DNA from: Bacteroidaceae bacterium | GTDB lineage: Bacteria > Bacteroidota > Bacteroidia > Bacteroidales > Bacteroidaceae | Reading direction: 5' to 3' | DNA: 64,000 nucleotides | Assembly (NCBI GenBank): GCA_017615835.1 | Contig: JAFZZI010000009.1 | Coordinates: 45,906 to 109,905, forward strand | Shown here: positions 3,001 through 46,088 of the stretch, piece after piece | Numbering within the stretch: the first letter of the stretch is position 1 | How the letters are laid out: the number at the start of each line of letters is the position of its first letter | Translations under genes and position numbers: made by a program | Notes under the pieces: model-generated | Told to the model about the DNA's origin: nothing | What the model saw: only the letters and a program-made list of their open reading frames with translations | Database searches by the model: none

Positions 3001-5766
3001 ATAGTAGGAAAGGTTCAGTATTGAGAGAGTGGTTGCCTCTTGTGAAGTTGTCTCTTTGTTGGGGAACAGTTCGCGCTCGTAGACTTCGCGTACATAGTGG
3101 TTGGATAACTGGTCCAAATCGCTCTTTAAGTGTGCGGGAGTAAGAATTGAGTTTCGACGGGTGAACAGAGGATCGATGGTGAACCAGTTGAGCAGTGCAC
3201 GGTGATAACCAATGGCTATGTCATCAGTGTTACCGGCATAGCGGTCAAGAATCTTGGAGGGGATTGATGAGAGTGACCACGCCGACGGATTGCTGATGTC
3301 TATTCCGCTTTCAGCGGCTTCGAAGTCGTCAATGTAGGAAGCGTTTCCCTGTACCTGACCCGATACACTTGAGAAAAGATGGGCGACTTCAGCGGTGAGT
3401 GAGATTCTTGATGGCTCAGTTGCGTTGACGAATGGAAGCAGATCTATCAGGTTTGTCAGTCCTTGGCTCTCCTTTTTCCAAGAAAGGTTAAGGCCAAGCA
3501 TAGTATTGACAAGTGGTTCGGACCCCATGAGCACCTTAGTGGTGAGTGGCATCTCGTTCAAGTGCATTACAGTGCCTCCCAATACGAAGTTTTTGCTGAA
3601 ATCGTATTTCCAGTTCAGTCCGAGCATAGTCTTGCGCTGCATGCTGAAGTCTGTATTGCTCTCAAGCGAAACATTTACGCTGGTCCCTGCATCGATGATG
3701 TTTTGGTTTATTATGGTTACTGTACCGTTGCTGTAGTCGACAATATAGTCGGTGTTTTCTACAAGAGTGGCTCCACCGGCAGTCACTATGACAGAACCAC
3801 GTGGAATATTGAACGAACCAAGGTTTATGACGTTGTCGGCTGAACCGGGGAACTGGCCGCTGAGATAGAACTTGTCTTTTTCGGCAATTCGTCTGGCTTC
3901 AGTTTTTGTCATTCTGTACAGTTCATCGAAAATGTACTTCGAGGCTATTGCAGAGTCTCCTATCTCTTTTGCAAGATGTTTTCCGAAAGGTTCTGTCACC
4001 GGGAATATGATTCTACCGGAAGACGAGAGTACAGTATAACCTTCAACATAGTCGAACTGACCGTTAGGATGTGCCTTCTGGTTTTCGTCCAGACGATCCA
4101 GATTCATCATGCTGAGTAAGGTGCGGCTTTTCAGATCTTGTTCGGGCAGGTATGTTATCCTGCTGCCTGTGCTGTCCGATGCATAGAGTATTTTCAGTTT
4201 GAACCCGTTCCGGGAAAGAGAGCCGCTGCCAATGGAATAGATGTTTTTCATCATGAGGTCCCAGGTTCCTGATCCCGGTGAGTTTGAGTTAGACTTCAGC
4301 AGTTTGAGGTAGAGCGTCTGTCTTGAATCGGGAATGTCAGACGAGAACTCGCCGACCTGATATGTGGCACCTTGGAAGGTATACTCGAAAGCCACGGCAA
4401 GAACCTCGTCGGAGGAGAGTGCTGTTCTGAGTGACAAGTATCCCAAGGCATTGTTGAGGGTGTATTCTGATTCGTTGAGTTTTCGGGCGTTTGATATTTT
4501 TTCGTAATCAGTACTTCCGGAAATGATATCGCCGAGAACGATGGCTATTGAGTCAGCGTTGCGGGCGGCTCCGTACAAATCCGTCATGGACTGGTACAGG
4601 TCGTTTGCTTCGTTGGAGGGGTTAGGGCCCCCAATGGCATGCCAAAGTGGATTGCTGATGAATGAAGATTCTCCTATGTCCGTGAATGCCAGAATATTAC
4701 GGGGATTGTCATAGCTGCTTCGCTTGTTTGTGACCCACACCTCAATGCGTGTTATGTTAATACCCGACATTATTGTCGGGAGCATGGACATGTTGTCGTC
4801 ATAATTGTTGCGGAAGTAGTGTGCCAGGAAAAAGTGACGGTTTTCTTCGTAGTCGCTTGCATCTATTTCGAAATCTGTCAATTGCTCTCCTCCGTTTGAA
4901 CTTACTGTCTTTGATGATGATTCCTTGCGTGAAATTACTGTCTGAAGGGAAAGCTTGCCGAACTGCAGGTCTGCCCTTATGCCAAACAACGAAGAGGCTC
5001 CCTGTATCAGTGACGAGTTTGTGGGGAAACTGATGTTTCCTGCGTCAAGCAACTTGATTATTTCGTCTTCTTTCCCTTCATATCTCAGTTTGATGTTTTT
5101 TGTGTCGAAGGTGAATGTGGCCTCAGTATTGTAATTGAGATCCATATTGATCTTGTCTCCGACTCTGGCGTTCACATTCAAGTTAATCTGCTCGTCAAAA
5201 TCGAACCCGAATGTCTTGCGGTTGTTAGCTGACAGAGAGGGGTTGTCCACATTCTTGAAGTCGCCGCCGATCTTGATTGAAGCCGACCCGCTTGTCTTGA
5301 CCTGAACACCGCCCGGGCCGAAGATCTTCTCAGCCGGCCCAAGATTGAAGTGCATGTCGGTGAAGTCGAATTTCTCCTTTCCGGAACTCTCGTATTCAAC
5401 TTCGTTCTTCTTTTTGAAGTAGGCTTGCATCGACTTGTTCATGCTCCATTTGTTGTACTCCTCGGGAGTCATGAGAATGGGTACGTCAAGATAGTTGTCG
5501 CCTAATTTTGTACCTACGCTATAGTTGTGGTCGGCTTCATTGTAGGTAGCAGACTGTGTAATGTTCTCAGGGTTGCGTAAGTTGCCGGGGATTGAGGTCC
5601 CCAGGTCAGTAAAGGCCTGATCGGATGTTGCGCTTGCCCTATACCTCGATACCCTTACCGTGTCACCTCGGTTCCGCCCCGTTTGGGAGTAAGCGGAACT
5701 TGCCGTCCCGAAGAGGCATAAGACTGCCAGAAGCGGGATCGTGAATATTTGCGGTTTGGGTGCCAT
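1..5766 (-). CDS. sprA: SprA/Sov, outer-membrane translocon of the type IX secretion system (partial, C-terminus beyond the window)
   Basis: One uninterrupted minus-strand frame of 1,922 codons runs from an ATG at 5766 to the left edge, so the C-terminus is missing. The start gives a signal peptide (hydrophobic IFTIPLLAVLCLFG, then SSAYSQ). About residue 83 the frame reads GTKLGDNYLDVPILMTPE and near residue 923 PNERGPYNLTDN, both features I recognise from the SprA/Sov family. SprA is a giant outer-membrane barrel of roughly 2,400 residues through which T9SS cargo crosses. It lies 25 bp after ruvA and probably shares its transcript. porT, another T9SS gene, is at 36.3 kb, and the C10 peptidase at 24.7 kb looks like cargo. 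Antisense frames inside it are shadows. Confidence 0.95.
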   Translation of the reverse strand, partial: MAPKPQIFTIPLLAVLCLFGTASSAYSQTGRNRGDTVRVSRYRASATSDQAFTDLGTSIPGNLRNPENITQSATYNEADHNYSVGTKLGDNYLDVPILMTPEEYNKWSMNKSMQAYFKKKNEVEYESSGKEKFDFTDMHFNLGPAEKIFGPGGVQVKTSGSASIKIGGDFKNVDNPSLSANNRKTFGFDFDEQINLNVNARVGDKINMDLNYNTEATFTFDTKNIKLRYEGKEDEIIKLLDAGNISFPTNSSLIQGASSLFGIRADLQFGKLSLQTVISRKESSSKTVSSNGGEQLTDFEIDASDYEENRHFFLAHYFRNNYDDNMSMLPTIMSGINITRIEVWVTNKRSSYDNPRNILAFTDIGESSFISNPLWHAIGGPNPSNEANDLYQSMTDLYGAARNADSIAIVLGDIISGSTDYEKISNARKLNESEYTLNNALGYLSLRTALSSDEVLAVAFEYTFQGATYQVGEFSSDIPDSRQTLYLKLLKSNSNSPGSGTWDLMMKNIYSIGSGSLSRNGFKLKILYASDSTGSRITYLPEQDLKSRTLLSMMNLDRLDENQKAHPNGQFDYVEGYTVLSSSGRIIFPVTEPFGKHLAKEIGDSAIASKYIFDELYRMTKTEARRIAEKDKFYLSGQFPGSADNVINLGSFNIPRGSVIVTAGGATLVENTDYIVDYSNGTVTIINQNIIDAGTSVNVSLESNTDFSMQRKTMLGLNWKYDFSKNFVLGGTVMHLNEMPLTTKVLMGSEPLVNTMLGLNLSWKKESQGLTNLIDLLPFVNATEPSRISLTAEVAHLFSSVSGQVQGNASYIDDFEAAESGIDISNPSAWSLSSIPSKILDRYAGNTDDIAIGYHRALLNWFTIDPLFTRRNSILTPAHLKSDLDQLSNHYVREVYERELFPNKETTSQEATTLSILNLSYYPNERGPYNLTDNLTRDGYLMDPGSNWGGIMRSLNTTDFEAANIEYLEFWLLDPFIYNPESEGGDFYINLGEVSEDILRDGKKFFENGMPVDGDSTKYTTTVWGRVPNSTSLVYAFDNNNSDSRSKQDVGYNGLSSEEERRFPTYADYLERIRTVVTDTARYRLFLNDPAADNYHYYRGDDYDDIELSVLERYKLFNGTEGNSPNSAETRQSYNTSARTSPDVEDVNTDYTLDEYEKYFSYHISLRPSDMEVGKNFIFDKREARIKLRNDKTETVNWYCFRIPLDQYETPVTGSIRDFSSIRFIRMYMTGFKEETHLRFGTLQLMTSQWRLYQQAISNPSVRSARLSGTVSAASINIEENGDRKPVNYVMPPGITRILDPDQTQLVQANEQAMSIKVQDVEAGDAKGIYKKSSLDLRKYQKIQMFAHAESLIEDPVGIKNDEVSVFVRLGSDYSDNYYEYEIPLKVTEPGFYNGDNESSREAVWPQANMLDITFDKLTEVKDKRNRERNTTGSRVVSSTAYTDYDPDNPRNRISVVGNPSIGNVRAIMIGVRNNSLGKRSAEVWVNELRLVGYESSGGTAAQGNLNVQLSDLGSFDMKGQMVTAGFGGLEQNVSERRTDNYYKYSITTSFNLGRFLPEKAKISIPVYYSYTREKTSPRYSPFDTDLELNDVIESYPEGHARDSIKSMTQTEMTQKNFSITGAKVNISSRKPMPYDPANFSVSFSRSAQYNNSSTIVYERDIRWRGALTYNYSSPIGSIAPFAKTNFRSVWFRILKESTINPLPQSISFNTDLMRNYHELQERDLEGSFGEIRPTHSNQFYWNRDLSVNWDIFKSLRMSFTARTRAEIEEPYRVVNKDLYPDDYEIWKDSVKMSLRKLGKPLDYQQNFTVNYQLPLDKLPIFAWTNTSISYTGHYTWNRGATYSSGKSYGNIISNKRNISLNGRFDMLKLYNMSNYLKKVNNRYTNSLNNQRQRSNGNNARIIAYNQEITLLPDSVYTIKHE

Positions 5767-5791
5767 TGTCGTTAATCCGGGGTGTGCATGG

Positions 5792-6388
5792 TCAGATGCG
5801 TTTCAGAGCTTCCTTTATGATGGCTTCTACAGTGAAATCCGGATTTTCTTTTATTATTGACTGTACTGTTTTGAGCGACTGTGACTGTTGGAAGCCTAGC
5901 ATCGTCAGTGCCGCCACTGCGTTCTCAATATTCTCACTGGCAGTTTTGTCTATTGAAGCTGAGAGACACGAAGCCGTTGCCGATTCTACTCTCATTTTGT
6001 CTTTCAGATCAACGATAATTCTTTGGGCTGTCTTGAGCCCGATGCCCTTGACCTGTTTCAGCAGACGTTCGTCACCGGTACTTATGATGTTCTCCAGCTC
6101 GGATGGAGAGAATGCCGACAAAATCATTCGGGCGGAAGCTCCTCCTATGCCGGGAACAGATATGAGCAGGAGGAACAGTTCACGCTCACGACGGTCAGCG
6201 AAGCCGTATAGGACATAGGCATCTTCGCGTATCGCCTCGTTGACGTATAGTTTGGCTTCCTGACTGTTTTGAATGGCGGAATATGTGTTGAGGGAAATGT
6301 TCAACAGATAGCCGACTCCACCGGCGGTTTCTATAACGACTTGTGCGGGATCAAGTTTCTCAATTCTTCCTTTGACGAACTCTATCAT
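5792..6388 (-). CDS. ruvA: Holliday junction branch migration protein RuvA
   Basis: 198 residues, the normal RuvA length. RuvA binds four-way junctions and loads the RuvB motor during recombination repair. The N-terminal OB-fold begins [12 protein letters not shown]. Two helix-hairpin-helix motifs are visible: VPGIGG at about 78-83 and VKGIG at about 113-117, followed by [13 protein letters not shown]. The C-terminal domain (about 150-198) is the small RuvB-binding bundle. The frame stays open upstream to 6769, but that extension is antisense to the epimerase gene and has no RuvA character, so I start at the ATG at 6388. It is the first gene of the ruvA-sprA unit. Confidence 0.97.
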
Positions 6389-6442
6389 TATCTTTTGACT
6401 GGGGTTACTGAAAGATAACGATGAAATACTCTTTTTATTGCT

Positions 6443-6473
6443 GCGTGCACGTACAAAACGTGTGTACGCACGC
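6443..6473. repeat. Imperfect inverted repeat in the divergent ruvA / epimerase intergenic region
   Basis: Arms GCGTGC-(AC)-GTAC and GTAC-GCACGC flank a loop of about 9 nt; the left arm also holds the palindrome CGTGCACG. It lies midway between the divergent starts at 6388 and 6527. It could be a regulator-binding site or an RNA hairpin. No T-run follows on either strand, so it is not an obvious terminator. Confidence 0.4.
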
Positions 6474-6526
6474 GAGATGTTGAAATGATTTGCTAAATTC
6501 GCGATGTCATACCAGATATTGTATTT

Positions 6527-7555
6527 ATGAAAAAGAAAGCTTTGTTTATTGGCGGTACAGGCACCATCAGCACTGCCATTACCCGCCGTCTGGCTGGGAT
6601 GGATGAATGGGAACTTACACTTGTCAACAGAGGAAACCGCTTGTCTGAGGTTCCGGAAGGTGTCAGGGTCATAAAGGCGGACATAAATGACGAGGATGCA
6701 GTAAGACGCCTTACGGCAGGTCTGTCTTTTGATGTGGTGGCCGATTTCATCGGATTCATTCCGCAACATGTGGAGCGCGACTATCGCCTGTTTTCAGGTC
6801 GTACAGCCCAATACATATACATCAGTTCCGCGTCGGCTTACAACAAGCCTTCCGGCAGTTATATTATTACTGAGGGTACCACCCTGTGCAATCCTTATTG
6901 GGAATATTCGCGTAATAAGATAGCTTGTGAGGATTTTCTTATGCGTAAATATCGCGAGAATGGATTCCCCGTAACAATAATACGTCCGAGCCATACTTAT
7001 GACGAACGCTCTGTTCCTCTTGGTGTTCATGGTGCAAAAGGCAGTTGGCAGGTAGTTAAACGCATGATTGAAGGTAAGCGAGTCATAATACATGGAGACG
7101 GTACCTCTTTGTGGACTTTTACACATAGTTCCGATTTTGCGAAGGGATTTGTTGGCCTTATGGGTAATGTCCATTCACTTGGCGAGGCTTTCCAAATAAT
7201 GTCAGACGAGACCTTGACTTGGAATCAGGCCTATGCTTCGATGGCATCGGTACTCGGTGTGGAACTGAAACCATACTATGTTTCTTCTGCTTTTCTCGCC
7301 GGGGCAGGTGATAACGACTATGAGGGCAGTCTGCTTGGTGACAAGGCCTGTTCTGTTGCGTTTGACTGCAGTAAATTGAAACGCATTGTTCCGGATTTCC
7401 AGGCAACCATACGTTTTGATCAAGGTATCCGATCAACAATCCAGTATGTGCTTTCACACCCCGAATGCCAGATTCCTGATTCTGAGTTTGACGAATGGTG
7501 TGACCGTGTGATTGTCGCTCAGGAAGAGGCCCGTTGTAAGGTGTTGGGTATTTGA
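6527..7555 (+). CDS. NAD-dependent epimerase/dehydratase (atypical SDR family)
   Basis: 342 residues. The N-terminus [14 protein letters not shown] is a Rossmann dinucleotide-binding loop. The active-site serine region is ISSASAY and the YxxxK pair is YSRNK near residue 127. The substrate-side motif TIIRPSHTY and the [15 protein letters not shown] stretch match NAD-dependent epimerase/dehydratases related to the CSP41/RNA-binding-like SDR branch. The substrate, presumably a nucleotide sugar or other sugar derivative, cannot be told from sequence. The gene is divergent from ruvA, and the esterase gene follows 26 bp downstream on the same strand. Confidence 0.85.
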
Positions 7556-7581
7556 AGACAGAGTGATATAATGACAGATAA

Positions 7582-8694
7582 ATGAGAAAAGTTTCGTTTT
7601 TCATGGCAGTGGCACTCGTGATACAAAGTGTCTCTGCAGTAGCTGAAACGGTAGTTCCGGCATCAGATAGCCGTATCGTGTGGGTGGGCCGTACTCAGGT
7701 TGACAGTGGCGAAGTGTCGTTTGACTGGAGTTCCGTTTATGTGAGGATATCCTTTGAGGGTAACTTGTTGAAACTCAAGGCTACTGATACCCGCAAGGAT
7801 TACTTCAACATCTGGATAGACAAGGAAATGTGTGCCGAACCTGACAAGGTGGTCTCTATTAGCAGCGATACACTGCTTCAGATTGTCTCGCCTTCGGATT
7901 TCGATTCATCCAAGGCTATGAAAAAACCTCACACTGTGATAATCCAGAAAAGGACAGAGGGTGAGCAGGGCAGGGCTGTGTTCCGGGAGTTTGAGACCTC
8001 AGGCACTGTGTTGCAGGCAAGTGGAATCTTACCAAGGATGATTGAGTTCGTCGGTGACTCCTACACATGTGGATACGGCTCGGAGAACAGCATTGCAACC
8101 CAGCGCTACAGACCCGAGACTCAGAATCCGTCGAAGACATATGCTGCTGTCACTGCCAGATATTTCGGTGCTGACTTTGTCACAATAGCACATTCCGGTC
8201 AGGGTATCTCGCGCAATTACGATGATGGTGACAGGTCGCAACACATGCCCTCACGCTATTCGCAGACTTTCGATACGGACCGTTCGGTTAAATGGGAGCC
8301 TCAGGGAGACTTCAGACCTGCAGTCACAGTCATATATCTGGGAACAAACGATTTTTCGACCGAACGCCAGCCTATGAGGGGAGCATTCAAACGCGATTAC
8401 TTATCGCTGCTGTCGAAAATAAAGGCCTATTGGGGGGCTGAGCATCCAATTCTCTGTGTGTCGTCGAAGGCCGATCCTATCCTCTTCGAGTATATCAGAG
8501 AGACTGTAGAGGACTGCGGTATGAAGAATGTTTATTATACAGGCTTCTTCAATGGAGTACATCTTGACACCAATGCCGAACTCGGTGCAGACTGGCATCC
8601 CAATTATAGGGCGCATGTGAAACTGGCCTATGCCTTGATTCCCTACATATCCACAATAACAGGCTGGGAGATGGAGGCTAAGCCCGTGGAATAA
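7582..8694 (+). CDS. Secreted SGNH-hydrolase esterase, carbohydrate esterase family 2-like
   Basis: 370 residues with a signal peptide (KVSFFMAVALVIQSVSAVAE). Residues about 25-140 form a beta-rich domain (RIVWVGRTQVDSGEVSFDWS...) as in the jelly-roll of CE2 esterases. The SGNH domain follows: nucleophile in EFVGDSYTCGYGSE at about residue 155, block-III GTNDFS, and the catalytic histidine in DWHPNYRAH near the C-terminus. CE2 enzymes remove acetyl groups from plant or host polysaccharides in the periplasm or at the surface. The substrate here is inferred only. It may be co-transcribed with the preceding epimerase. The next gene, ddh, has its own promoter. Confidence 0.82.
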   Translation: MRKVSFFMAVALVIQSVSAVAETVVPASDSRIVWVGRTQVDSGEVSFDWSSVYVRISFEGNLLKLKATDTRKDYFNIWIDKEMCAEPDKVVSISSDTLLQIVSPSDFDSSKAMKKPHTVIIQKRTEGEQGRAVFREFETSGTVLQASGILPRMIEFVGDSYTCGYGSENSIATQRYRPETQNPSKTYAAVTARYFGADFVTIAHSGQGISRNYDDGDRSQHMPSRYSQTFDTDRSVKWEPQGDFRPAVTVIYLGTNDFSTERQPMRGAFKRDYLSLLSKIKAYWGAEHPILCVSSKADPILFEYIRETVEDCGMKNVYYTGFFNGVHLDTNAELGADWHPNYRAHVKLAYALIPYISTITGWEMEAKPVE

Positions 8695-8704
8695 AAAAAA
8701 TGAT

Positions 8705-8712
8705 TAGTTTTG
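8705..8712 (+). promoter_or_regulatory. Promoter -7 box for ddh
   Basis: TAGTTTTG matches the Bacteroidetes TAnnTTTG -7 element, 28 bp before the ddh ATG and just after the esterase stop. The -33 element is degenerate. Confidence 0.5.
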
Positions 8713-8740
8713 CAGTCGTAAAACACCTAACCATTAGACA

Positions 8741-9640
8741 ATGAAAAAGATTAAGGCAGCGGTCGTCGGCTATGGAAACATAGGACGCTACGTATTGGAG
8801 GCTCTTGAAACGGCTCCCGATTTTGAAATTGCCGGTGTGGTGCGCCGTTCCGGAGCCAAGGACAAACCCGCCGAATTGGCTGATTATGATGTGGTTGATG
8901 ACATCTCGAAGATTGAAAAGCCTGATGTGGCTATTCTTGCAGTACCAAGCCGCAAAACTGAAGAGTATGCAGCCAAGATGATGCGCGAGGGCATTAGTAC
9001 AGTTGACAGTTTCGATATACACACGCTTATACCTGAGACCCGTTCCCGTCTTGACAAAGTAGCCAGGCAAACCGGAAAGGTAGCTGTGATTTCTGCCGGA
9101 TGGGATCCGGGTTCCGATTCAGTGGTAAGAGCACTGATGCAGGCAATGTCTCCCAAGGGTGTTTCATATACAAATTTCGGCCCCGGAATGTCTATGGGAC
9201 ACACTGTGGCAGTCAAGTCGATTGAAGGTGTCAGAAACGCCTTGTCTATGACGATACCTTTGGGTACGGGCATTCACCGCCGCATGGTTTACGTTGAACT
9301 TGAACCTGGGCGTGAACTGGCGGAAGTGGCAGCGGCCATCAAAAGCGATCCTTATTTCGTACATGACGAGACGCATGTAATGCAGGTTGAGTCTGTCGAT
9401 GAACTGAAGGATATGGGGCATGGAGTCAATCTGATACGTAAGGGCGTCAGCGGAAAGACACAGAATCAGCTATTTGAGTTTGACATGAAGATAAACAATC
9501 CGGCACTGACCGGCCAGATTCTTGTCTGTTCGGCACGGGCGGCAGTAAAACAGGCTCCCGGTTGCTATACTCTGATAGAAATTCCAGTGATAGATTTGCT
9601 TGCGGGTGACCGCGACTCTTTGGTGGCACATCTTGTGTAA
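8741..9640 (+). CDS. ddh: meso-diaminopimelate D-dehydrogenase
   Basis: 299 residues. The enzyme makes meso-2,6-diaminopimelate directly from tetrahydrodipicolinate with ammonia and NADPH (EC 1.4.1.16), a one-step alternative to the acylated DAP routes, feeding lysine and peptidoglycan. The N-terminus KAAVVGYGNIGRYVLEAL is the Rossmann nucleotide site; VVRRSGAKDK, SFDIHTLIPETR, SAGWDPGSDSV and NFGPGMSMGHT are family-specific blocks. The stop TAA overlaps the next start by one base (TAATG), so translation of the DUF2007 gene is probably coupled. asd, an earlier step of the same pathway, is at 40.8 kb. Confidence 0.95.
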   Translation: MKKIKAAVVGYGNIGRYVLEALETAPDFEIAGVVRRSGAKDKPAELADYDVVDDISKIEKPDVAILAVPSRKTEEYAAKMMREGISTVDSFDIHTLIPETRSRLDKVARQTGKVAVISAGWDPGSDSVVRALMQAMSPKGVSYTNFGPGMSMGHTVAVKSIEGVRNALSMTIPLGTGIHRRMVYVELEPGRELAEVAAAIKSDPYFVHDETHVMQVESVDELKDMGHGVNLIRKGVSGKTQNQLFEFDMKINNPALTGQILVCSARAAVKQAPGCYTLIEIPVIDLLAGDRDSLVAHLV

Positions 9641-9879
9641 TGGCTATTATGGCTGACGATAGACTGGTTTGTGTGTTCAAGGGACAGGCCTTCGAGGCAG
9701 AGGTAGTCAAGGCCCGTCTTGAGGATTCTGGCATTCCTTCCATGATACAGAATGATACCCTGAGCGCCATTTTCTCTACTTATACGTATATGGCGGGCGA
9801 TGTGGCTGTGATGGTGAATTCTGACGATGCCGAGGCTGCACGGACTCTTTTGGATTCTGAAAACGAATTGACAGATTAG
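9640..9879 (+). CDS. DUF2007-domain small protein
   Basis: 79 residues from the ATG overlapping the ddh stop; an in-frame ATG at 9649 is an alternative. The pattern ADDRLVCVFKGQAFEAEVVKARLEDSGIP...GDVAVMVNSDDAEAARTLL matches DUF2007 proteins, small ferredoxin-like-fold domains thought to sense or signal; no molecular role is established. No signal peptide or membrane segment. argF' follows 3 bp later, so it sits inside a ddh-DUF2007-argF' unit. Confidence 0.75.
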   Translation: MAIMADDRLVCVFKGQAFEAEVVKARLEDSGIPSMIQNDTLSAIFSTYTYMAGDVAVMVNSDDAEAARTLLDSENELTD

Positions 9880-9882
9880 GAT

Positions 9883-10839
9883 ATGAGACATTTTACGGGA
9901 GTAGCGGATTTAGGAGACCTGCATCAGGCTTTGCAAGAGGCGCTTGAGATAAAGAGAAACAGGTTCAAGTACATTGAGCTTGGCCGCAACAGAACGTTAC
10001 TTGCGGTATTTTTCAATTCAAGTCTGCGCACTCGCCTCAGTACCCAGAAGGCGGCTCTGAATCTTGGAATGAACGTGATTGTATTGGATGTGAACCAAGG
10101 AGCGTGGAAACTTGAGACCGAACGCGGCGTGATAATGGATGGCGATAAGTCCGAGCACTTGCTTGAAGCCGTTCCTGTCATGGGGTGCTACTGCGATGTC
10201 ATAGGGGTGCGTTCGTTTGCACGTTTTGAGAATAAAGAGGATGACTATAATGAGAAAATCCTAAATCAGTTCATCGATTATTCAGGACGTCCGGTCTTCT
10301 CAATGGAGTCAGCGACCGGCCACCCGTTGCAAAGTTTCGCAGACTGGATTACGATTGAGGAATTCAAGGTTAAGGAGCGTCCAAAGGTGGTCATGAGTTG
10401 GGCTCCGCATCCTAAATCACTACCTCAAGCCGTTCCCAATTCGTTTGCCCAATGGATGGTAGCTGCCGGTTACGAAGTCGTTATTACACATCCGGAAGGA
10501 TATGAACTGGAGCCTCGGTTTACTTCGGGTGCCCGCATAGAGTACGATCAGATGAGGGCCTTCGAAGGAGCTGATTTTGTATATGGCAAGAACTGGTCAG
10601 CTGCCAGTGACAGCCATTATGGCCAGATTTTGTCTATGGACCGTAGTTGGACTATCGGGGAGAGACAGATGTCGGTAACTGACAATGCTTACTTTATGCA
10701 TTGTCTGCCTGTGCGTCGCAACATGATTGTAACAGATGACATTATTGAGGGACCCCGTTCTTTGGTGATTCCTGAGGCGGCTAACCGTGAAATATCGGCA
10801 ACCATAGTCCTTAAACGAATCTTGGAAGGTCTTGACTGA
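9883..10839 (+). CDS. argF': N-succinylornithine carbamoyltransferase (ArgF')
   Basis: 318 residues. It transfers the carbamoyl group from carbamoyl phosphate to an N2-acylated ornithine in the acylated arginine pathway of Bacteroidetes. The carbamoyl-phosphate loop is FFNSSLRTRLSTQKA (SxRTR), and the C-terminal signature is FMHCLPVRRNMIVTDD. Overall it reads like the Bacteroides fragilis SOTCase. At residue 90, the position that sets succinyl versus acetyl specificity (Pro in B. fragilis SOTCase, Glu in Xanthomonas AOTCase), this protein has Ser (DGDKSEH). Published mutants with Ser there use succinylornithine, so I call SOTCase. The gene ends 4 bp before the convergent nigD-like gene. Confidence 0.92.
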   Translation: MRHFTGVADLGDLHQALQEALEIKRNRFKYIELGRNRTLLAVFFNSSLRTRLSTQKAALNLGMNVIVLDVNQGAWKLETERGVIMDGDKSEHLLEAVPVMGCYCDVIGVRSFARFENKEDDYNEKILNQFIDYSGRPVFSMESATGHPLQSFADWITIEEFKVKERPKVVMSWAPHPKSLPQAVPNSFAQWMVAAGYEVVITHPEGYELEPRFTSGARIEYDQMRAFEGADFVYGKNWSAASDSHYGQILSMDRSWTIGERQMSVTDNAYFMHCLPVRRNMIVTDDIIEGPRSLVIPEAANREISATIVLKRILEGLD

Positions 10840-37697: not shown

Positions 37698-37765
37698 CGT
37701 GTAGTACCATGTCTTAAATATTTTCCCCTATTGGCTATTACCTATAGTCATTATTGATTCCTAAA

Positions 37766-37796
37766 TTGGTGCATTTAACTTTTTTGCTTATATTTG
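37766..37796 (+). promoter_or_regulatory. Promoter of the Wzi-family gene
   Basis: TTG (37766-37768), a 20-bp spacer and TATATTTG (37789-37796). Exact consensus, 47 bp before the chosen ATG at 37844, which argues against the longer frame starting at 37754. Confidence 0.75.
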
Positions 37797-37843
37797 AACT
37801 CAGTTCGGAAGGAGCGGTTGCCAGTATTTGTTTTTCAGAAAGT

Positions 37844-39559
37844 ATGAGAACTGGGATATGTTTATTAACGCGGAAGTGGTCTGTTGCGGTATTCTTGCTA
37901 TTCATTTTATTCCCTGCAATTTCGGATGCCCAGATTTCAGATGATGGAGTTTCGTCTGTTATTCTGGAGAACGAACAGCAGATTGAGGACGTTTCAGCCC
38001 CCGACCATCGTAGTGATGATGACTTCTTGAGACGTTACGGTTCGGGAAAAGTTGATGATGTTGAACTTTTGAAAAGGAGTCTCCAATCAAGGATACAACG
38101 TCGTCTGGTACTTTATGCAAATGCCTCGGCTAGTGCAGGTGGCGGTCCTCACGCTCCTTTCTGGTTCACTTCCAACAGACAAGGCATGTCTCCGACGAAG
38201 AATTGGGGCGTCTTGCTTGATATAGGTCTTGACGGAGGTATGCGACTGCCTGACAATTTCGTGTTCAATTATGGTATGGAGGTTGCAGTTGCGGCTAACT
38301 ATCAGTCTGATTTCTATTTTCATCAGATGTATATAGAAGCCGGATATAAATGGTTTGACCTCTCACTGGGCATGAAGGAGCGTTGGGGCGAACTTAAGAA
38401 TCCGAGACTTTCCTCAGGTTCGCTGACCTGGTCGGGAAACAGCCGCCCCATACCCCAAATCCGTCTTGAAATTCCAGAGTTTACACGTATGCGGATACTT
38501 GGCGGTTGGTTCTCTGTCAAGGCGCATATTGCTTATGGCTGGTACTTAGACAGCAGATGGCGTGCAGATACTGAAATGTCGTACTATTCTGGAATTAACG
38601 AAGATTATTTCTATGTTGACAAGTTACTATATCACAGCAAGGATTTCTTTCTTAAGTTCGGTGATACTGAACGATTTCCCCTTGAGGTTACAATAGGTCT
38701 TGAGATGCATGCACAGTTTGGCGGTACGAAACATTTTGGTCCTAACGATAGAATTGAAGAGCTTCCGCACGGTCTTAAGGCCTATGCCGGCATTTTGTTT
38801 CCTTTCAATGTCGTCGGTGAACAGGGAAAAGAGAATGGCAACACTCTTGGAAGTTGGCATCTTGCATTCGGACTTTCGCTTAATGGCTGGAAATACAGAG
38901 CCTACTATGAACATTTCTTCGAGGATCATTCATCGATGTTGGGCATCGAATACAAGGCCGACTTGAATGGACAGAAGAGTTTCATATGTTACGGAATCAG
39001 GCGCAATATGTTGGACGGTCTGTTTGGGCTTGAAGTAAATGCTCCGGAGGGACTTCCTTTCAGTAACATCGTGTTTGAGGTACTGAACACGAGGGGGCAG
39101 TCTGGGCCTGTATGTCGGACACCCTGGTGGCAGGGCATTATCCCTGAAGGTGTTGATGGCATAGATGATTACTATCATCATGAATTTTACCATAGTTACA
39201 GTTATTATGGTTATTCGAACGGGAGTCCGCTTTTAGTTTCTCCAATATACAATGAGGATGGTGACCTTAAGCCGAAGAGCAATAGGGTGCTGTCTTTCCA
39301 CCTGGGTGTTGATGGCAGTATCTCTCCGAGTTTCGAATACAGGGTTTTGGCTACTCATACCACTCACTGGGGCAGGTATTATATTCCTTTCAGGGAGAAG
39401 GAATACGTAACATCAGCACTTATTGAGTGTAACTATAGATTTAAAAGAAGTGGCTGGAAACTTGGTTTTTCACTTGCGGCAGACTTTGATTCAGGTTCGC
39501 TTGTCGGAAACAACAAGGGGGCTATGCTCACGGTCTCAAAAATATGGAAGATGTTATGA
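37844..39559 (+). CDS. Capsule-assembly Wzi-family outer-membrane protein
   Basis: 571 residues from the ATG at 37844. Signal peptide (WSVAVFLLFILFPAISDAQ). The Wzi-like domain starts ASASAGGGPHAPFWFTSNRQGMSPTKNWGVLL and continues as beta-barrel strands to the C-terminus (SGWKLGFSLAADFDSGSLVGNNKGAMLTVSKIWKML). Wzi in Proteobacteria is a lectin-like barrel that holds capsule to the surface. In Bacteroidales many copies occur away from capsule loci, and no capsule genes are near here, so the ligand is open. The stop overlaps the next ATG. Confidence 0.82.
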   Translation: MRTGICLLTRKWSVAVFLLFILFPAISDAQISDDGVSSVILENEQQIEDVSAPDHRSDDDFLRRYGSGKVDDVELLKRSLQSRIQRRLVLYANASASAGGGPHAPFWFTSNRQGMSPTKNWGVLLDIGLDGGMRLPDNFVFNYGMEVAVAANYQSDFYFHQMYIEAGYKWFDLSLGMKERWGELKNPRLSSGSLTWSGNSRPIPQIRLEIPEFTRMRILGGWFSVKAHIAYGWYLDSRWRADTEMSYYSGINEDYFYVDKLLYHSKDFFLKFGDTERFPLEVTIGLEMHAQFGGTKHFGPNDRIEELPHGLKAYAGILFPFNVVGEQGKENGNTLGSWHLAFGLSLNGWKYRAYYEHFFEDHSSMLGIEYKADLNGQKSFICYGIRRNMLDGLFGLEVNAPEGLPFSNIVFEVLNTRGQSGPVCRTPWWQGIIPEGVDGIDDYYHHEFYHSYSYYGYSNGSPLLVSPIYNEDGDLKPKSNRVLSFHLGVDGSISPSFEYRVLATHTTHWGRYYIPFREKEYVTSALIECNYRFKRSGWKLGFSLAADFDSGSLVGNNKGAMLTVSKIWKML

Positions 39560-39966
39560 AAAAGAGGTTAATGGGAATTGTACTGGCGTTACTGGCGTTC
39601 GTTGGTTTTTTTTCATCATGCACGTCGGCTTTCCCAAACGATAAACTGGCATTTTTGTGGAGACTTGACAAAATTGAGTTACTTGACGGATCCGGTAATC
39701 CATTCGATGAGATGCAAATAGAGGCATGGTACAGTTTTGCGAGAGATCTTGTGGAAATTCGTAAGGGGTATGCTGAGCCGGGTGTCTTTGGCATTCTTAC
39801 CGATTATGGTGATTCTTTGAGATTTGATTTCTCCCTGCATTACGATTCTCTCTCACTGGCTGCTTTGGGTATGTTTGAGAAGGTTACAATGCTTAAAGTG
39901 GAAAAAATGGATAGTGAAATGATCCTTTCCAACAATAATTCGTGCTATTACTTTACTAGATGGTAG
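39556..39966 (+). CDS. DUF4847-like lipoprotein
   Basis: 136 residues from the ATG overlapping the Wzi stop (ATGA); an in-frame ATG at 39544 would add four residues. Lipobox FFSSC. The domain (FLWRLDKIELLDGSGNPF...FDFSLHYDSLSLAALGMFEKVTMLKVEKMDSEMILSNN) looks like a small lipocalin-like beta-barrel such as DUF4847. Coupled translation suggests that it works with the Wzi-family barrel. Family assignment is tentative. Confidence 0.65.
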   Translation: MKKRLMGIVLALLAFVGFFSSCTSAFPNDKLAFLWRLDKIELLDGSGNPFDEMQIEAWYSFARDLVEIRKGYAEPGVFGILTDYGDSLRFDFSLHYDSLSLAALGMFEKVTMLKVEKMDSEMILSNNNSCYYFTRW

Positions 39967-40623: not shown

Positions 40624-40703
40624 ATCTTTTGTAATTCGAAAACGGCAATTTACTGCAAAAGTAAAGTTTTTCTGATATTATAGAATTGAAATTGGTGTGC
40701 GCG

Positions 40704-40735
40704 TTGTGGATTCTTTGATAATTCAGTTAATTTTG
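40704..40735 (+). promoter_or_regulatory. Promoter of asd
   Basis: TTG (40704-40706), a 21-bp spacer and TAATTTTG (40728-40735), exact -7 consensus, 30 bp before the asd ATG. It lies inside an upstream extension of the reading frame and so rules that extension out. Confidence 0.75.
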
Positions 40736-40765
40736 CAGGCTGAAACAGACAATAGAAGTAATTGT

Positions 40766-41779
40766 ATGAAAGTAGCTATAGTTGGTGCTAGTGGAGCCGT
40801 TGGACAGGAGTTTCTCAGAGTCCTTGAAGAGCGTAATTTCCCAATTGACGACCTTTTGTTATTCGGGTCATCTCGCAGTGCAGGTGCTTTTTATCAATTC
40901 AGAAAGAAGAAGATAGAAGTGAAGCTTCTTCAACATAACGACGACTTTAAGGGTGTTGACATAGCTTTCGTATCGGCTGGCGGCGGAACCTCGGAGGAAT
41001 ATGCTGAGACAATTACTAAATACGGAGCCGTAATGATAGATAATTCCAGTGCTTTCCGTATGGACGAGAATGTCCCTCTTGTGGTGCCTGAGGTAAATCC
41101 TGAGGATGCTTTAGTTAGGCCAAAGGGGATAATTGCAAATCCAAACTGCTCAACCATCATGATGATAGTTGCCTTGAAGGCGCTTAACGACATATCGAAA
41201 GTAACTAATGTACAGGTGGCAACCTATCAGGCTGCCAGCGGAGCAGGTGCAGCTGCAATGGCGGAACTGGAGACCCAGTACCGTCAGGTCCTAAGCGGAG
41301 AACCTGTTATAGTCGAAAAGTTCGCTCATCAACTTGCATATAACCTAATACCTCACATCGATGTTTTCAAACCGAGCGGTTATACCAAGGAAGAAGAGAA
41401 GATGTACTACGAAACCAGAAAGATGCTTCATAATGACATCAGAGTAAGTGCTACATGCGTTCGTGTACCTGCACTCAGATGCCATTCAGAGGCTATTTGG
41501 GCAGAAACAGAGCGACCTCTTTCTTTGGAAGAAATAAATGCAGCATTTAGGGGAGGTGATGGCCTTGAGGTTATAGACAACCCTGACAATAGGGAGTATC
41601 CTATGCCTTTGTTTCTGTCTGGTACAGACAAGGTGTATGTAGGTCGCGTGCGTAAGGACATTGCCAACCCGAGTGTTGTGGTATTTTGGGTTGTAGGAGA
41701 CCAAATACGTAAGGGCGCAGCTCTTAATGCCGTTCAGATAGGAGAGTATCTCCTGAAGAACGATAAACGCTTCAAGTGA
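40766..41779 (+). CDS. asd: Aspartate-semialdehyde dehydrogenase
   Basis: 337 residues from the ATG at 40766. Reduces aspartyl-4-phosphate to aspartate semialdehyde with NADPH, the branch to lysine/DAP, threonine and methionine. N-terminal [21 protein letters not shown] is the NADP loop; catalytic Cys in [13 protein letters not shown], active-site His in [10 protein letters not shown]. ddh at 8.7 kb lies on the same pathway. Monocistronic with its own promoter. Confidence 0.97.
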
Positions 41780-41839: not shown

Positions 41840-42691
41840 CTACTCTACAAAGTTCTTGGCTTTTGTCAATGTGTCTATCGTATTCGTCTCATTCTTGCCT
41901 AAAGTGTAGTACACTTTGATGAAGGCAGAATCCTTAAGAAAATCAACGTGTCCTATTTCGATATTGTTGATCTTGAGCCCTAGCCTTTTCTCGAGGTCGG
42001 CAATCAGTTCAACTCTATGTTCTGGAGTGATAAGTTCAATGCGGTCATAGAGTACCAGTTTTGTGGATGATTGCTTTACGAACTTTTCACCTTCCAATAC
42101 CCATATCAGCACTACTATCAGCAAGTTCGTTACTATGAGTATGCCGATATGTGGCCAAGATAGGACAAAATGCGGACTTGTGCCACCTTCTCCGACGAGC
42201 TTGAAAATTGTAGAAAGACCATTGATGGCAGCTATGGCTATTATTACGAACATGTAAGTCATCTCCCTGATGGGGACCGTTTCCGTCCTGTATCGTATAA
42301 CCCCGAAAATGGCAAATAATCCAAGTGTCAGTCCTATTCCGATCTCGACATTGCCCATCATATATAGCATCATGAGCATCGCTGAACTGAACAACATGAA
42401 TGTAAAATAATAATCACGTCTACGGCTTTTCTTATAGTAGAACAACTGTATTATTACCCAACAAACCACAAGGTTTATCGCAAAACGCAATGCTAGTTCG
42501 GTTAAACTTTGAGCCGGCGTCTTCATTGCGTCTGTTATGGAGGCTACATCCAATATTTCTTCATCGTTGAGATCATAGTCGCCAAAAGATGCTATCGAAG
42601 CGTCATCTGGGAAAACGCCTGTCTCTTGCGCTGCAGAACGGACGCCTATAATGACTAAAAGTAAGAAGAGCAGTAATGTAAGTCTTTTCAT
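41840..42691 (-). CDS. DUF4956 membrane protein, coupled to a VTC-domain protein
   Basis: 283 residues. An N-terminal signal-like segment, then about four membrane helices: FAINLVVCWVIIQLFYY, FTFMLFSSAMLMMLYMM, IGIGLTLGLFAIFGVIRYRTETVPIREMTYMF and IGILIVTNLLIVVLIWVL. A cytoplasmic alpha/beta domain of about 80 residues (LYDRIELITPEHRVELIADLEKRLGLKI...) closes the protein. The RYRTExxPxxEMxY loop is the DUF4956 signature. DUF4956 genes recur next to VTC-domain genes in diverse bacteria, and here the ATG overlaps the VTC stop (ATGA). A membrane partner for polyphosphate or another polymer is an inference. Confidence 0.85.
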   Translation of the reverse strand: MKRLTLLLFLLLVIIGVRSAAQETGVFPDDASIASFGDYDLNDEEILDVASITDAMKTPAQSLTELALRFAINLVVCWVIIQLFYYKKSRRRDYYFTFMLFSSAMLMMLYMMGNVEIGIGLTLGLFAIFGVIRYRTETVPIREMTYMFVIIAIAAINGLSTIFKLVGEGGTSPHFVLSWPHIGILIVTNLLIVVLIWVLEGEKFVKQSSTKLVLYDRIELITPEHRVELIADLEKRLGLKINNIEIGHVDFLKDSAFIKVYYTLGKNETNTIDTLTKAKNFVE

Positions 42692-43488
42692 TTTGTAACT
42701 AATATTTTATGTCCTGTTATCTTTTCAATCTGATGCGTCTTTTGTTTGAACCTGTTGGATTTTGCGTTGGGATTTGTCAGTGTCATCCCAATGCAGTATT
42801 TGCTTATTCTCATTGGCTTGACTCGTAATTCCATGAATATTTCCTTCATTTCACTGAATGCCCGTCCATCCTGTTTCAGCTCAAGAATTACTGCATCGTC
42901 CAAAGTTGCCTTAATGCCAGTGTCTTGATTGATAAAGATTAGTGAAGTGTCGATTGTCAGGCGTTCGGTGATGTCTTTGTTCGCCAAGGTGATACGGCGA
43001 AAAATGGTTTCAAGACGTGGTTTAAGCATATCAGCACTGTATGAAGACTTATTCGCTATATATTCGTCTGCTTCCAGATTGTTGCGGAAGTCTTTGAAGC
43101 AATCTTTCGGAATGGCAATGCGCTTTTTCCTAGTGCGTCCCTTGTTGCTCTTCAGCTTGATTTCCAGAAAAGTTAGTCCAGAAGAGATATATTCTCTCGT
43201 GCGTATTTTCTGACGGGTCAGCCTCCGGTTATGGTGATCTGTGAACATTTTAAGGGAATCTGTATCATAATACATAGAACTGTATGGTATTATATTCTCT
43301 CCTTCAACTTTGAGCGCACGGTATCCCCGACTGGCTGCCATGTTGAGTATTTTCTCAAGAACTGATATGTTGGTGACATATTTTGTATCTATGCGGTTCA
43401 TGAGTTTTGCTGACTCGGTAAGTTCAGAAAGAGAGATGAAACCGATTTTGTTCCAAACACCGAATCCGTCAACAGTATTGTTCATCAT
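42688..43488 (-). CDS. VTC-domain protein (putative polyphosphate polymerase)
   Basis: 266 residues from the ATG at 43488 (MMNNTVDGFG). The VTC/triphosphate-tunnel pattern is visible: MNRIDTKYV (about 38-46), YYDTDSLKMFTDHH, TRQKIRTREY, FLEIKLKSNKGRTRKKR, ITERLTIDTSL, and ILELKQDGRAFSEM near the end. Basic residues on alternating strands line the tunnel in yeast Vtc4, which makes polyphosphate from ATP; bacterial homologues are largely uncharacterised. A 7-bp gap separates it from the secreted YD-like gene upstream, and it overlaps DUF4956 downstream. Confidence 0.82.
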   Translation of the reverse strand: MMNNTVDGFGVWNKIGFISLSELTESAKLMNRIDTKYVTNISVLEKILNMAASRGYRALKVEGENIIPYSSMYYDTDSLKMFTDHHNRRLTRQKIRTREYISSGLTFLEIKLKSNKGRTRKKRIAIPKDCFKDFRNNLEADEYIANKSSYSADMLKPRLETIFRRITLANKDITERLTIDTSLIFINQDTGIKATLDDAVILELKQDGRAFSEMKEIFMELRVKPMRISKYCIGMTLTNPNAKSNRFKQKTHQIEKITGHKILVTK

Positions 43489-43495
43489 CGAGTGC

Positions 43496-43924
43496 TCACT
43501 CAGGATCTTCTGCAATGTACTCGTAATTTTTTGTAGTCAGCAATTTGCCCTTGGAATCATAGGTGTACTGCACCTTTTTGCGGTCAAACTCGTTGTATTC
43601 CATTATTTTGATGTTAATCAACTTGTTCTTCTCGTTGTAAACGAGTTCCCTTGATATTTTGCCGTTGTTTCCATACTCGTATCGTTTAGTCCATTTCAGA
43701 CCATCACTTCCATATTCCTTTTCTTCGATTTTCTTTCCTTCTGAATTGTATATCGTTACATGATCCAGAATCTTCTGGGTCGAACCTGCCAGGGAATTCC
43801 ATTCCTTAATGACAAGATTCTTTTTGTTCATCTTCACCTGGGGTTCGTCATCATCCTGAGCAAAAACAAATGGTGCAGAAAGAATTATTGTGACCAAAAA
43901 TAACAGTGTAGTTCTTTTTTTCAT
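43496..43924 (-). CDS. Secreted YD-repeat-like small protein upstream of the VTC gene
   Basis: 142 residues from the ATG at 43924. Signal peptide (LLFLVTIILSAPFVFAQDDDE). The mature part consists of short repeats ending in Tyr: VTIYNSEGKKIEEKEYGSDG, RYEYGNNGKISRELVYNEKNK, MEYNEFDRKKVQYTYDSKGK, KNYEY, resembling the RHS/MORN-like YD type. Function unknown. First gene of the YD-VTC-DUF4956 unit; 7 bp separates it from the VTC start. The periplasmic or surface location suggests that the module acts at the envelope. Confidence 0.75.
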   Translation of the reverse strand: MKKRTTLLFLVTIILSAPFVFAQDDDEPQVKMNKKNLVIKEWNSLAGSTQKILDHVTIYNSEGKKIEEKEYGSDGLKWTKRYEYGNNGKISRELVYNEKNKLINIKIMEYNEFDRKKVQYTYDSKGKLLTTKNYEYIAEDPE

Positions 43925-44076: not shown

Positions 44077-45516
44077 CTACTTCTTTTCCCTCCAAAGTCT
44101 GCTCATGTCTTCAAGAGTCTTGCCCTTAGTCTCTGGAACCATCCTCAAAACGAACAATGCGGACAGTACCGAGAAACTGGCGTAGATGAGATATGTACCG
44201 CCTACACTCCAGTCGCATAGCGATGGAAATGTAGATGAAATAACGTAGTTTGATATCCATTGTGCCGCCACTGCTACTGCGACTGCGTGACTTCTGATGG
44301 TATTCGGGAAAATCTCAGATATCAGAACCCAGCAGACAGGTCCCCACGATACCATGAAGGAAGCAGTATATATGATGATGAATACTAAGGCCGTTATTCC
44401 GATTACATCACAGAAGGACAGGACGCTGAGTACAGTCATTCCTATAGCCATTCCTATGGAGCCTGCTATCAATAACTTCTTGCGACCCCACTTGTCCACA
44501 GTGAGTATCGCAATTACTGTCGATATGATGTTGACAATTCCCATGACTACGGTTTGGATCATTGCGGCATCACCGCTGGAGCCCATGTTTTGGAATATTC
44601 TGGGAGCGTAGTAAAGTACTACGTTGATTCCTACGGCCTGTTGAAAGAATGACAAAAGAATTCCAACAATTATCACTGTCACTCCATACGAGAACAGTTT
44701 CTCTTTCTTTTCCGTCAGAGTCTCTTTTATATTGATTAATATTTCTTGAGCCTTGTTTGTTCCGTTAATTCGAGTCAACACTTCGAGAGCCTTTTTGCTG
44801 TTCCCGCTCATGACAAGGAATCTTGGAGTTTTAGGAACCAGCAAGAGCAGCAGTCCGAATGCTGCTGCGGGGAAAGCCTCGCTCACGAACATTTTCCTCC
44901 ATCCTATATCAACCATGGCGATTTGGATAAGGTCTGGGGTGTCTGCTAATCCGCTCCTAATCAAGAAGTTGACAAAGTACACAACGAGCTGTCCGAAAAT
45001 AATAGCGAATTGGTTGCAAGACACAAGGGTTCCCCGAATGTTTGCTGGAGCGACCTCTGCGATATATGTCGGACAGATGGCAGATGCCATTCCCACTCCA
45101 ATGCCGCCCAGAACCCTATATAGGATAAAGGCCCACATAAGACTTTTCGTGGCTTCGCCCGGCTGGAAAAACTGGAATCCTGGTCTAAAGAGGAATTCCG
45201 GCATATAGCTACCCAGAGCGGACAGAAAAAACATTACAGATGCAAGGATTAGTGAGTTTCTTCGTCCAAGATGACTGGACATGAATCCGGAAATAAGGCC
45301 TCCAATAATGCATCCGATGAGGGCAGCTGAAACTACGCTACCATGAATGGCAGTCGTGTAATAGTCATGTAGACCGCTCTTGAAGAACTCTTGAAGTGCT
45401 TGCTCCGCACCGGATATAACCGCTGTGTCGTACCCGAAAAGAAGTCCTCCAATAACTGCAACTGAGCAAATACTGTACAGGTAGATTTTGCTGCCTGAAT
45501 CTGGTTTTCTGTCCAT
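44077..45516 (-). CDS. Sugar porter family MFS transporter (XylE-like)
   Basis: 479 residues, twelve membrane helices. Sugar porter signatures: GYDTAVISGAEQ in helix 1, LGRRNSL after helix 2, GGIGVGMASAICPTYIAEVAPANIRG, PKTPRFLVMSG (PESPR variant), VDKWGRKKLL and the C-terminal PETKGKTLEDM. A proton-linked monosaccharide importer, closest in style to XylE; xylose, arabinose or glucose cannot be told apart. No sugar-catabolic genes are adjacent. 152 bp without a clear terminator separate it from the YD-VTC-DUF4956 genes on the same strand. Confidence 0.92.
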   Translation of the reverse strand: MDRKPDSGSKIYLYSICSVAVIGGLLFGYDTAVISGAEQALQEFFKSGLHDYYTTAIHGSVVSAALIGCIIGGLISGFMSSHLGRRNSLILASVMFFLSALGSYMPEFLFRPGFQFFQPGEATKSLMWAFILYRVLGGIGVGMASAICPTYIAEVAPANIRGTLVSCNQFAIIFGQLVVYFVNFLIRSGLADTPDLIQIAMVDIGWRKMFVSEAFPAAAFGLLLLLVPKTPRFLVMSGNSKKALEVLTRINGTNKAQEILINIKETLTEKKEKLFSYGVTVIIVGILLSFFQQAVGINVVLYYAPRIFQNMGSSGDAAMIQTVVMGIVNIISTVIAILTVDKWGRKKLLIAGSIGMAIGMTVLSVLSFCDVIGITALVFIIIYTASFMVSWGPVCWVLISEIFPNTIRSHAVAVAVAAQWISNYVISSTFPSLCDWSVGGTYLIYASFSVLSALFVLRMVPETKGKTLEDMSRLWREKK

Positions 45517-45704: not shown

Positions 45705-46088
45705 ATGCCAACAATTCAACAGTTAGTGAGGAATGGGCGACAGGTGATAGAGGACAAGAGTAAGTCACCTGCTTTGGACTCATGCCCCCAGAGGAGAGGC
45801 GTTTGTGTAAGGGTTTACACAACAACGCCCAAAAAGCCTAATTCAGCAATGAGAAAGGTTGCTCGTGTACGCCTGACAAATCAGAAGGAAGTGAACTCGT
45901 ACATTCCTGGAGAAGGTCACAATCTTCAGGAACACTCAATCGTGCTGGTTCGCGGAGGTCGTGTGAAGGATTTGCCGGGCGTTCGCTATCACATTGTTCG
46001 TGGTACTCTTGACACAGCCGGTGTTTCAGGACGTCTTCAGCGTAGGTCGAAGTACGGGGCAAAGCGTCCGAAAGCGTCCAAAAAGTAA
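45705..46088 (+). CDS. rpsL: 30S ribosomal protein S12
   Basis: 127 residues. [47 protein letters not shown] and [16 protein letters not shown] are the S12 hallmarks. It sits at the decoding centre; the PKKPNSA and KDLPGVR loops are the sites where streptomycin-resistance changes occur elsewhere. Lys of the TTPKKPNSA loop is present, the sensitive-type residue. First gene of the str block; rpoB and rpoC are not immediately upstream. Confidence 0.99.

Follow-up and report, generated by a model that had tools for sequence, protein, structure and literature searches.

Among the closest described systems to the locus analysed here is the yeast VTC complex, in which Vtc4, a member of the triphosphate-tunnel family, is combined with the membrane domains of Vtc1/Vtc3. 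We know of no secreted YD-type partner of this yeast complex. The Vtc4 substitutions R264A/R266A/E426N impair catalysis (PMC9911596). Residue K458 of Vtc4 is also termed catalytic in a study which reports that altering its counterpart in a plant tripolyphosphatase matters little, and which lists hydrolases, cyclases and RNA triphosphatases among members of the triphosphate-tunnel fold family (PMC4641920). In Gram-positive bacteria, genes for CotH, polyphosphate-polymerase-like and DUF4956 proteins are described as accessory genes alongside Pel loci (PMC7112168). In Bacteroides thetaiotaomicron, BT3498-BT3499 (DUF4956 and DUF2490) form a row of an iron-response table which gives no function (PMC10434189). 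A search of the open-access literature found no publication on the YD-VTC-DUF4956 trio presented here or on its replacement of a resident gene pair.

We analysed a stretch of 64,000 nucleotides (the window) from a gut-type Bacteroidaceae bacterium (GCA_017615835.1, contig JAFZZI010000009.1, positions 45,906 to 109,905). The ORF list includes three minus-strand frames in the order YD-like, VTC and DUF4956, encoding a putative secreted YD-like protein (43924-43496, 142 aa), a VTC-family triphosphate-tunnel enzyme (43488-42688, 266 aa) and a DUF4956 membrane protein (42691-41840, 283 aa). The ORF coordinates confirm two features reported in the initial annotation: 7 bp separate the end of the YD-like frame from VTC, and the TGA stop of VTC and the ATG start of DUF4956 overlap as ATGA (42691-42688, minus strand). 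A 4-base overlap is seen again in 37 of 78 VTC-DUF4956 pairs. A pattern search upstream of the YD-like gene gave no convincing promoter candidate. To the left lies an asd-like gene (40697..41779, plus strand) and to the right a XylE-type sugar porter (44077..45516, minus strand; NF007484, E 2.2e-201) followed by an rpsL-like gene (45705..46088, plus strand); asd and rpsL are what we take these flanking frames to be. Elsewhere in the window, at 37754-39966 on the plus strand, a Wzi-like protein (PF14052, 30.4 bits against a cut-off of 30.1) precedes a small ORF that resembles a lipoprotein and matches lipocalin-8 below cut-off; the two listed ORFs share 16 bases. The window genome (G000, 82% complete) has a single VTC and a single DUF4956.

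Like the yeast complex, the trio joins a triphosphate-tunnel protein having counterparts of R264, R266, E426 and K458 to a membrane protein partner. Unlike it, the trio lacks the SPX domain and the three-helix VTC membrane domain (VTC and DUF4956 are its sole Pfam matches above cut-off), and DUF4956 is a protein in its own right for which five helices are predicted, as opposed to three per yeast subunit. In the Gram-positive Pel accessory set, too, a VTC-type gene and DUF4956 share an envelope setting (PMC7112168); we know of no YD gene named in its description, and in the Bacteroidales loci CotH is rare while DUF2490 and Cthe_2159 are common. The adjacency of DUF4956 and DUF2490 in BT3498-BT3499 resembles the cassette of the window's own family (PMC10434189). 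We propose that the trio is a conserved envelope module in which VTC would synthesise a polymer, DUF4956 would export it and the YD-like protein would act in the periplasm, and that it was gained horizontally and replaced the native pair. Taken as a whole, this proposal seems to us evenly poised between right and wrong. Polyphosphate synthesis with export is its best reading, in which we infer the product, the export and the roles of the YD, DUF2490 and Cthe_2159 proteins.

The VTC protein matches PF09359 over profile positions 1-233 of 235 (101.9 bits, cut-off 23; E 5.1e-29). No signal peptide is apparent by eye and the protein is taken as cytosolic. The motifs RIDTKY, RTREY, EIKLK and ELKQDG, to which the initial annotation drew attention, are all present. 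With a sequence E of 0.0093 and an i-E of 0.08 for the best stretch, the match to Vtc4 in the PDB is weak, and its stretches in the C-terminal half do not reach significance by themselves. Residues R96, R98, E203 and K230 align with R264, R266, E426 and K458 of Vtc4, and their counterparts are invariant in 49/49 relatives (set A5); R98 is kept in 25 of the 26 rows of set A2. The tunnel is only partly Vtc4-like, because the position of D34 is acidic in 49/49 rows (A5) where Vtc4 has T198. Glu2, Glu4 and Glu171 of the acidic patch of the hydrolases (Glu2, Glu4, Glu90 and Glu171 in AtTTM3) were mapped: R32 and K205 are basic as in Vtc4 and D34 is acidic. By our own mapping K205 occupies the place of Glu171, and the placement of Glu2/Glu4 relies on the ExExK motif.

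The aligned Vtc4 residues favour polyphosphate synthesis as the putative activity; D34 does not. In an alternative which we consider possible if unlikely, VTC is a hydrolase or a phosphotransferase of the triphosphate-tunnel superfamily (a tripolyphosphatase, or an enzyme that donates phosphate in the modification of a surface protein or a polysaccharide), with DUF4956 as its anchor or regulator. Such an activity would agree with the hydrolases, cyclases and RNA triphosphatases of the fold family (PMC4641920), with the acidic D34 position in all 49 rows and with the Gram-positive CotH, polyphosphate-polymerase-like and DUF4956 genes that adjoin Pel polysaccharide genes (PMC7112168). It fits poorly with two of the three assigned acidic-patch positions being basic as in Vtc4 (R32, K205) and with the invariant K458 counterpart.

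Under the preferred reading, polyphosphate synthesis, a membrane partner would receive the product. The DUF4956 protein covers PF16316 completely (positions 1-169 of 169; 167.6 bits, cut-off 30.6; E 2.7e-49). Hydropathy and a structure model (pLDDT 85.5) agree with a membrane protein, and the model predicts an N-terminal signal-like helix, five membrane helices between residues 59 and 200 and a C-terminal beta-alpha-beta-beta domain (208-263). No second Pfam family exceeds cut-off in the window protein and relatives gave weak matches only. A PDB sequence search gave no match and a PDB fold search no clear structural relative pointing to a channel; such absences do not argue that the fold is new. 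The description of the locus as a polymerase with a membrane partner, a putative function, fits the VTC residues and the predicted five-helix fold.

For the YD-like window protein, no Pfam or NCBIfam match exceeds cut-off: RHS_repeat (PF05593) scores 14 bits (cut-off 22) and TIGR01643 13 bits (cut-off 15.8). With 23.9 bits, a relative at locus L141 clears the threshold for RHS_repeat, and hits to this model at E<=0.1 come from 24 of 45 relatives. The tyrosine richness attributed to the protein in the initial annotation is a mild enrichment (10/142 residues by our own count). After a signal-like N terminus, the structure model predicts an eight-strand beta meander (residues 38-133); we take the protein to be a secreted eight-strand beta protein that is weakly RHS/YD-like. 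DUF3836 secreted proteins and the YD shells of Rhs proteins and teneurins share 12-16% identity with it, a match that may reflect a mere common arrangement, and the Rhs shells are far larger.

YD relatives occur in 67 of 393 Bacteroidales genomes (E<=1e-3). A YD profile matched 254 of 393 genomes at the order level; this figure was set aside, since a large share of the matches are parts of longer frames resembling other YD-type proteins. From the 69 places listed besides the window, 40 were examined (the 30 ranked highest plus 10 from the other 39): YD stands directly upstream of VTC in 32, and VTC lies within the stretch in 34. The places without YD directly before VTC are L142 (a contig end), L160, L165, L167, L169, L172, L173 and L180. 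A second set, anchored on DUF4956, took the 80 best from among 575 confirmed matches in named genomes, 79 of them labelled, and is consequently biased to close relatives; in these best-matching loci, VTC is next upstream of DUF4956 in 78/79, YD directly upstream of VTC in 64/79 (at a spacing of <=15 bp in 60 of the 64) and DUF2490, a putative porin, directly after DUF4956 in 65/79. Some of the 15 loci of this set without YD directly before VTC are contig ends. Some close relatives lack YD (L190, L200, L202, L203), and Cthe_2159 stands directly before VTC in L190, L200 and L203. Since YD-VTC-DUF4956 recurs in most relatives and in several families of Bacteroidales, its order is more than chance; judged by gene order, it is a conserved Bacteroidales unit. 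The possibility that YD is restricted to the window locus was rejected, as relatives with the YD-VTC order are present in many Bacteroidales genomes. A GEGG-motif lipoprotein-like gene precedes YD in 27 of the 40 YD-anchored loci; it carries a PL4-type fn3 domain (PF14686 is above cut-off in L148, at L148:2606-3316) and is a frequent operon member outside the window's family.

The arrangement is different in the window's own family, where VTC is present in 90 of 151 genomes and all 90 loci were examined with their flanks. DUF4956 follows VTC in 88 of them, the two exceptions being contig ends. DUF2490 is nearby in 80/90 and a cluster of a small protein with a T9SS-type tail and Cthe_2159 proteins in 75/90, the usual order being VTC, DUF4956, DUF2490, small protein, Cthe_2159. 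Among the named genomes of the DUF4956-anchored set, Bacteroides ihuae (L245) and B. timonensis (L238) show the order VTC-DUF4956-DUF2490-Cthe_2159. YD accompanies VTC in just 2/90 loci, the window and L070, because the trio is foreign in this family. Absence of YD from related loci, named in the initial annotation as a refutation, is not what was seen overall: YD is in place in 32/40 and 64/79 loci of the two anchored sets, but it is scarce in the window's own family and missing from some close relatives. The suggestion that YD stands in place of CotH proved wrong because CotH is rare, lying on the same strand and no further than about five genes away in 1/79 DUF4956-anchored loci, compared with Cthe_2159 in 39/79 and DUF2490 as next gene in 65/79. 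A Pfam scan of six window proteins gave no CotH match. In one genome of the window's family (G073, L108:5404-7365), VTC-DUF4956 is followed by CotH with a 4-base overlap.

The frequency of Cthe_2159, a beta-helix protein found within about five genes in those 39 loci and directly upstream of YD in 25 of them, would suit a different role, in which the trio serves the display or assembly of Cthe_2159-type surface proteins and the polymer is a counter-ion or energy source only. The small T9SS-tail protein that accompanies Cthe_2159 in the family cassette would also be in keeping with this. We judge it improbable: 40 of the 79 loci have no Cthe_2159 that near, and none was found in the stretch round the trio in any of the five genomes of the window's genus that carry the foreign-type version.

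Concerning the origin of the trio, the window VTC and DUF4956 share 74% identity with those of G514, a genome of another family, 59-66% with a mostly ruminant Bacteroidales clade and 41-45% with those of eight genus mates, whose pairs lack YD. For EF-G, encoded about 3 kb from the trio, the relation is reversed: 73-83% identity with seven genus mates having a full-length match and 62% with G514 (G147, with paralogue matches only, stands outside this comparison). In the genus mate G070 (L263), rpsL comes straight after the asd-like gene, and the window has DUF4956-VTC-YD and the XylE-type porter between them. A quick tree, which has several long branches among the other rows, rejects the placement of every genus row in a single clade (p 5.9e-6). 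By identity and phylogeny, the trio is foreign in the window genome and was gained by horizontal transfer. A mis-binned contig was rejected as an explanation, EF-G on the same contig being closest to genus mates and the asd-rpsL neighbourhood being common to G070.

Among the 37 genomes of the genus, 36 have VTC: foreign-type in five (G000, G540, G544, G547 and G563; 58-100% identity to the window) and native-type in 31 (39-45%). The tree agrees with this typing for the five foreign-type and eight of the 31 native-type proteins. A single clade for the five foreign-type genomes is rejected (p 3.5e-8, quick tree), and therefore at least two gains occurred. The insertion sites, with genes named by eye, are asd/rpsL in the window, a flotillin-like gene in G540, G544 and G547 and a proS-like gene in G563. 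The native order, as in G070 (L264), is small gene, DUF2490, DUF4956, VTC, frr, rsgA; frr lies in the VTC flank in six of eight native-type genus mates and not in that of L036 or L095. At the frr site of the window genome (L261), the order is Cthe_2159, small gene, DUF2490, frr, rsgA and the pair is gone, with no significant tblastn match to a native VTC or DUF4956 remnant. At the frr site, each of the five foreign-type genomes retains rsgA, frr and DUF2490 and lacks the VTC-DUF4956 pair, and the small gene and Cthe_2159 are visible there in four (the stretch L286 is too short). No genome of the 37 shows both versions intact. Because many of the genomes are incomplete (62-100%), absence from a whole genome is less certain than loss at the frr site, which is read within contigs. 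As read from gene content, the foreign trio took over from the native VTC-DUF4956 pair.

Several further observations were made in the genus. G147 has the native pair and a broken foreign-type cassette (YD/VTC and DUF2490 fragments) between two Cthe_2159 genes (L282, G147:C20:13000-27000, at 4064-10140). The native-type VTC frames of G550:C72, G543:C68 and G546:C89 each contain one in-frame stop, due to decay or assembly error. The window genome has six Cthe_2159 matched stretches (G000:C32, C21), possibly more than one per protein, and many family genomes have several.

The replacement of a resident pair hints at a needed, putative function. Its repetition within the genus suggests three things: the pair would work as a single functional unit, the genus would need it, since 36/37 genomes have VTC, and YD would belong to one version. 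YD might instead be a hitch-hiking gene that contributes nothing to VTC function, as could be supposed from the 31 of 36 VTC-bearing genus members that are native-type and from the absence of YD beside VTC in all eight such loci with flanks. This is a doubtful explanation given that YD lies within 15 bp of VTC in 60/64 loci across several families and occurs in every one of the five genus members of the foreign type.

PPK1 is absent from all nine genus genomes drawn. Among the 151 family genomes, 80 have VTC only, 38 PPK1 only, 10 both and 23 neither. This avoidance has p 6e-11 at the genome level, ignoring kinship, and p 0.02 at the genus level, and much of it is lineage. VTC as a strict substitute for PPK1 was rejected: PPK1 is also found in 10 of 90 VTC genomes, and within the six genera that have both genes the two co-occur in 10 of 15 VTC genomes.

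In the proposed module, cytosolic VTC most likely polymerises phosphate from ATP, like Vtc4, and the inner-membrane DUF4956 protein most likely receives the chain and exports it from the cytosol. A periplasmic role is most likely for the secreted YD-like beta protein, and further outwards would come DUF2490, a putative outer-membrane porin, and Cthe_2159, a surface beta helix. The old site in the window genome still has the native genes for DUF2490, the small T9SS-tail protein and Cthe_2159. In a more speculative extension, to which we give rather little weight, polyphosphate would be secreted across the whole envelope of Gram-negative bacteria: VTC would make the chain, DUF4956 move it over the inner membrane, YD guide it in the periplasm and DUF2490 release it, and Cthe_2159 or CotH at the surface would bind it or put it to use, perhaps to donate phosphate outside the cell, where ATP is lacking. 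The trio would then be an exchangeable cartridge, swapped while the bacteria keep their own outer parts.

If the proposed function is true, it would provide bacteria without PPK1 with membrane-coupled polyphosphate synthesis and surface placement, and would explain a widespread and unstudied VTC-DUF4956 gene pair. Repeated swapping in a single genus amounts to a natural complementation experiment, and the presence of the cassette in named Bacteroides (B. ihuae and B. timonensis) makes tests practical.
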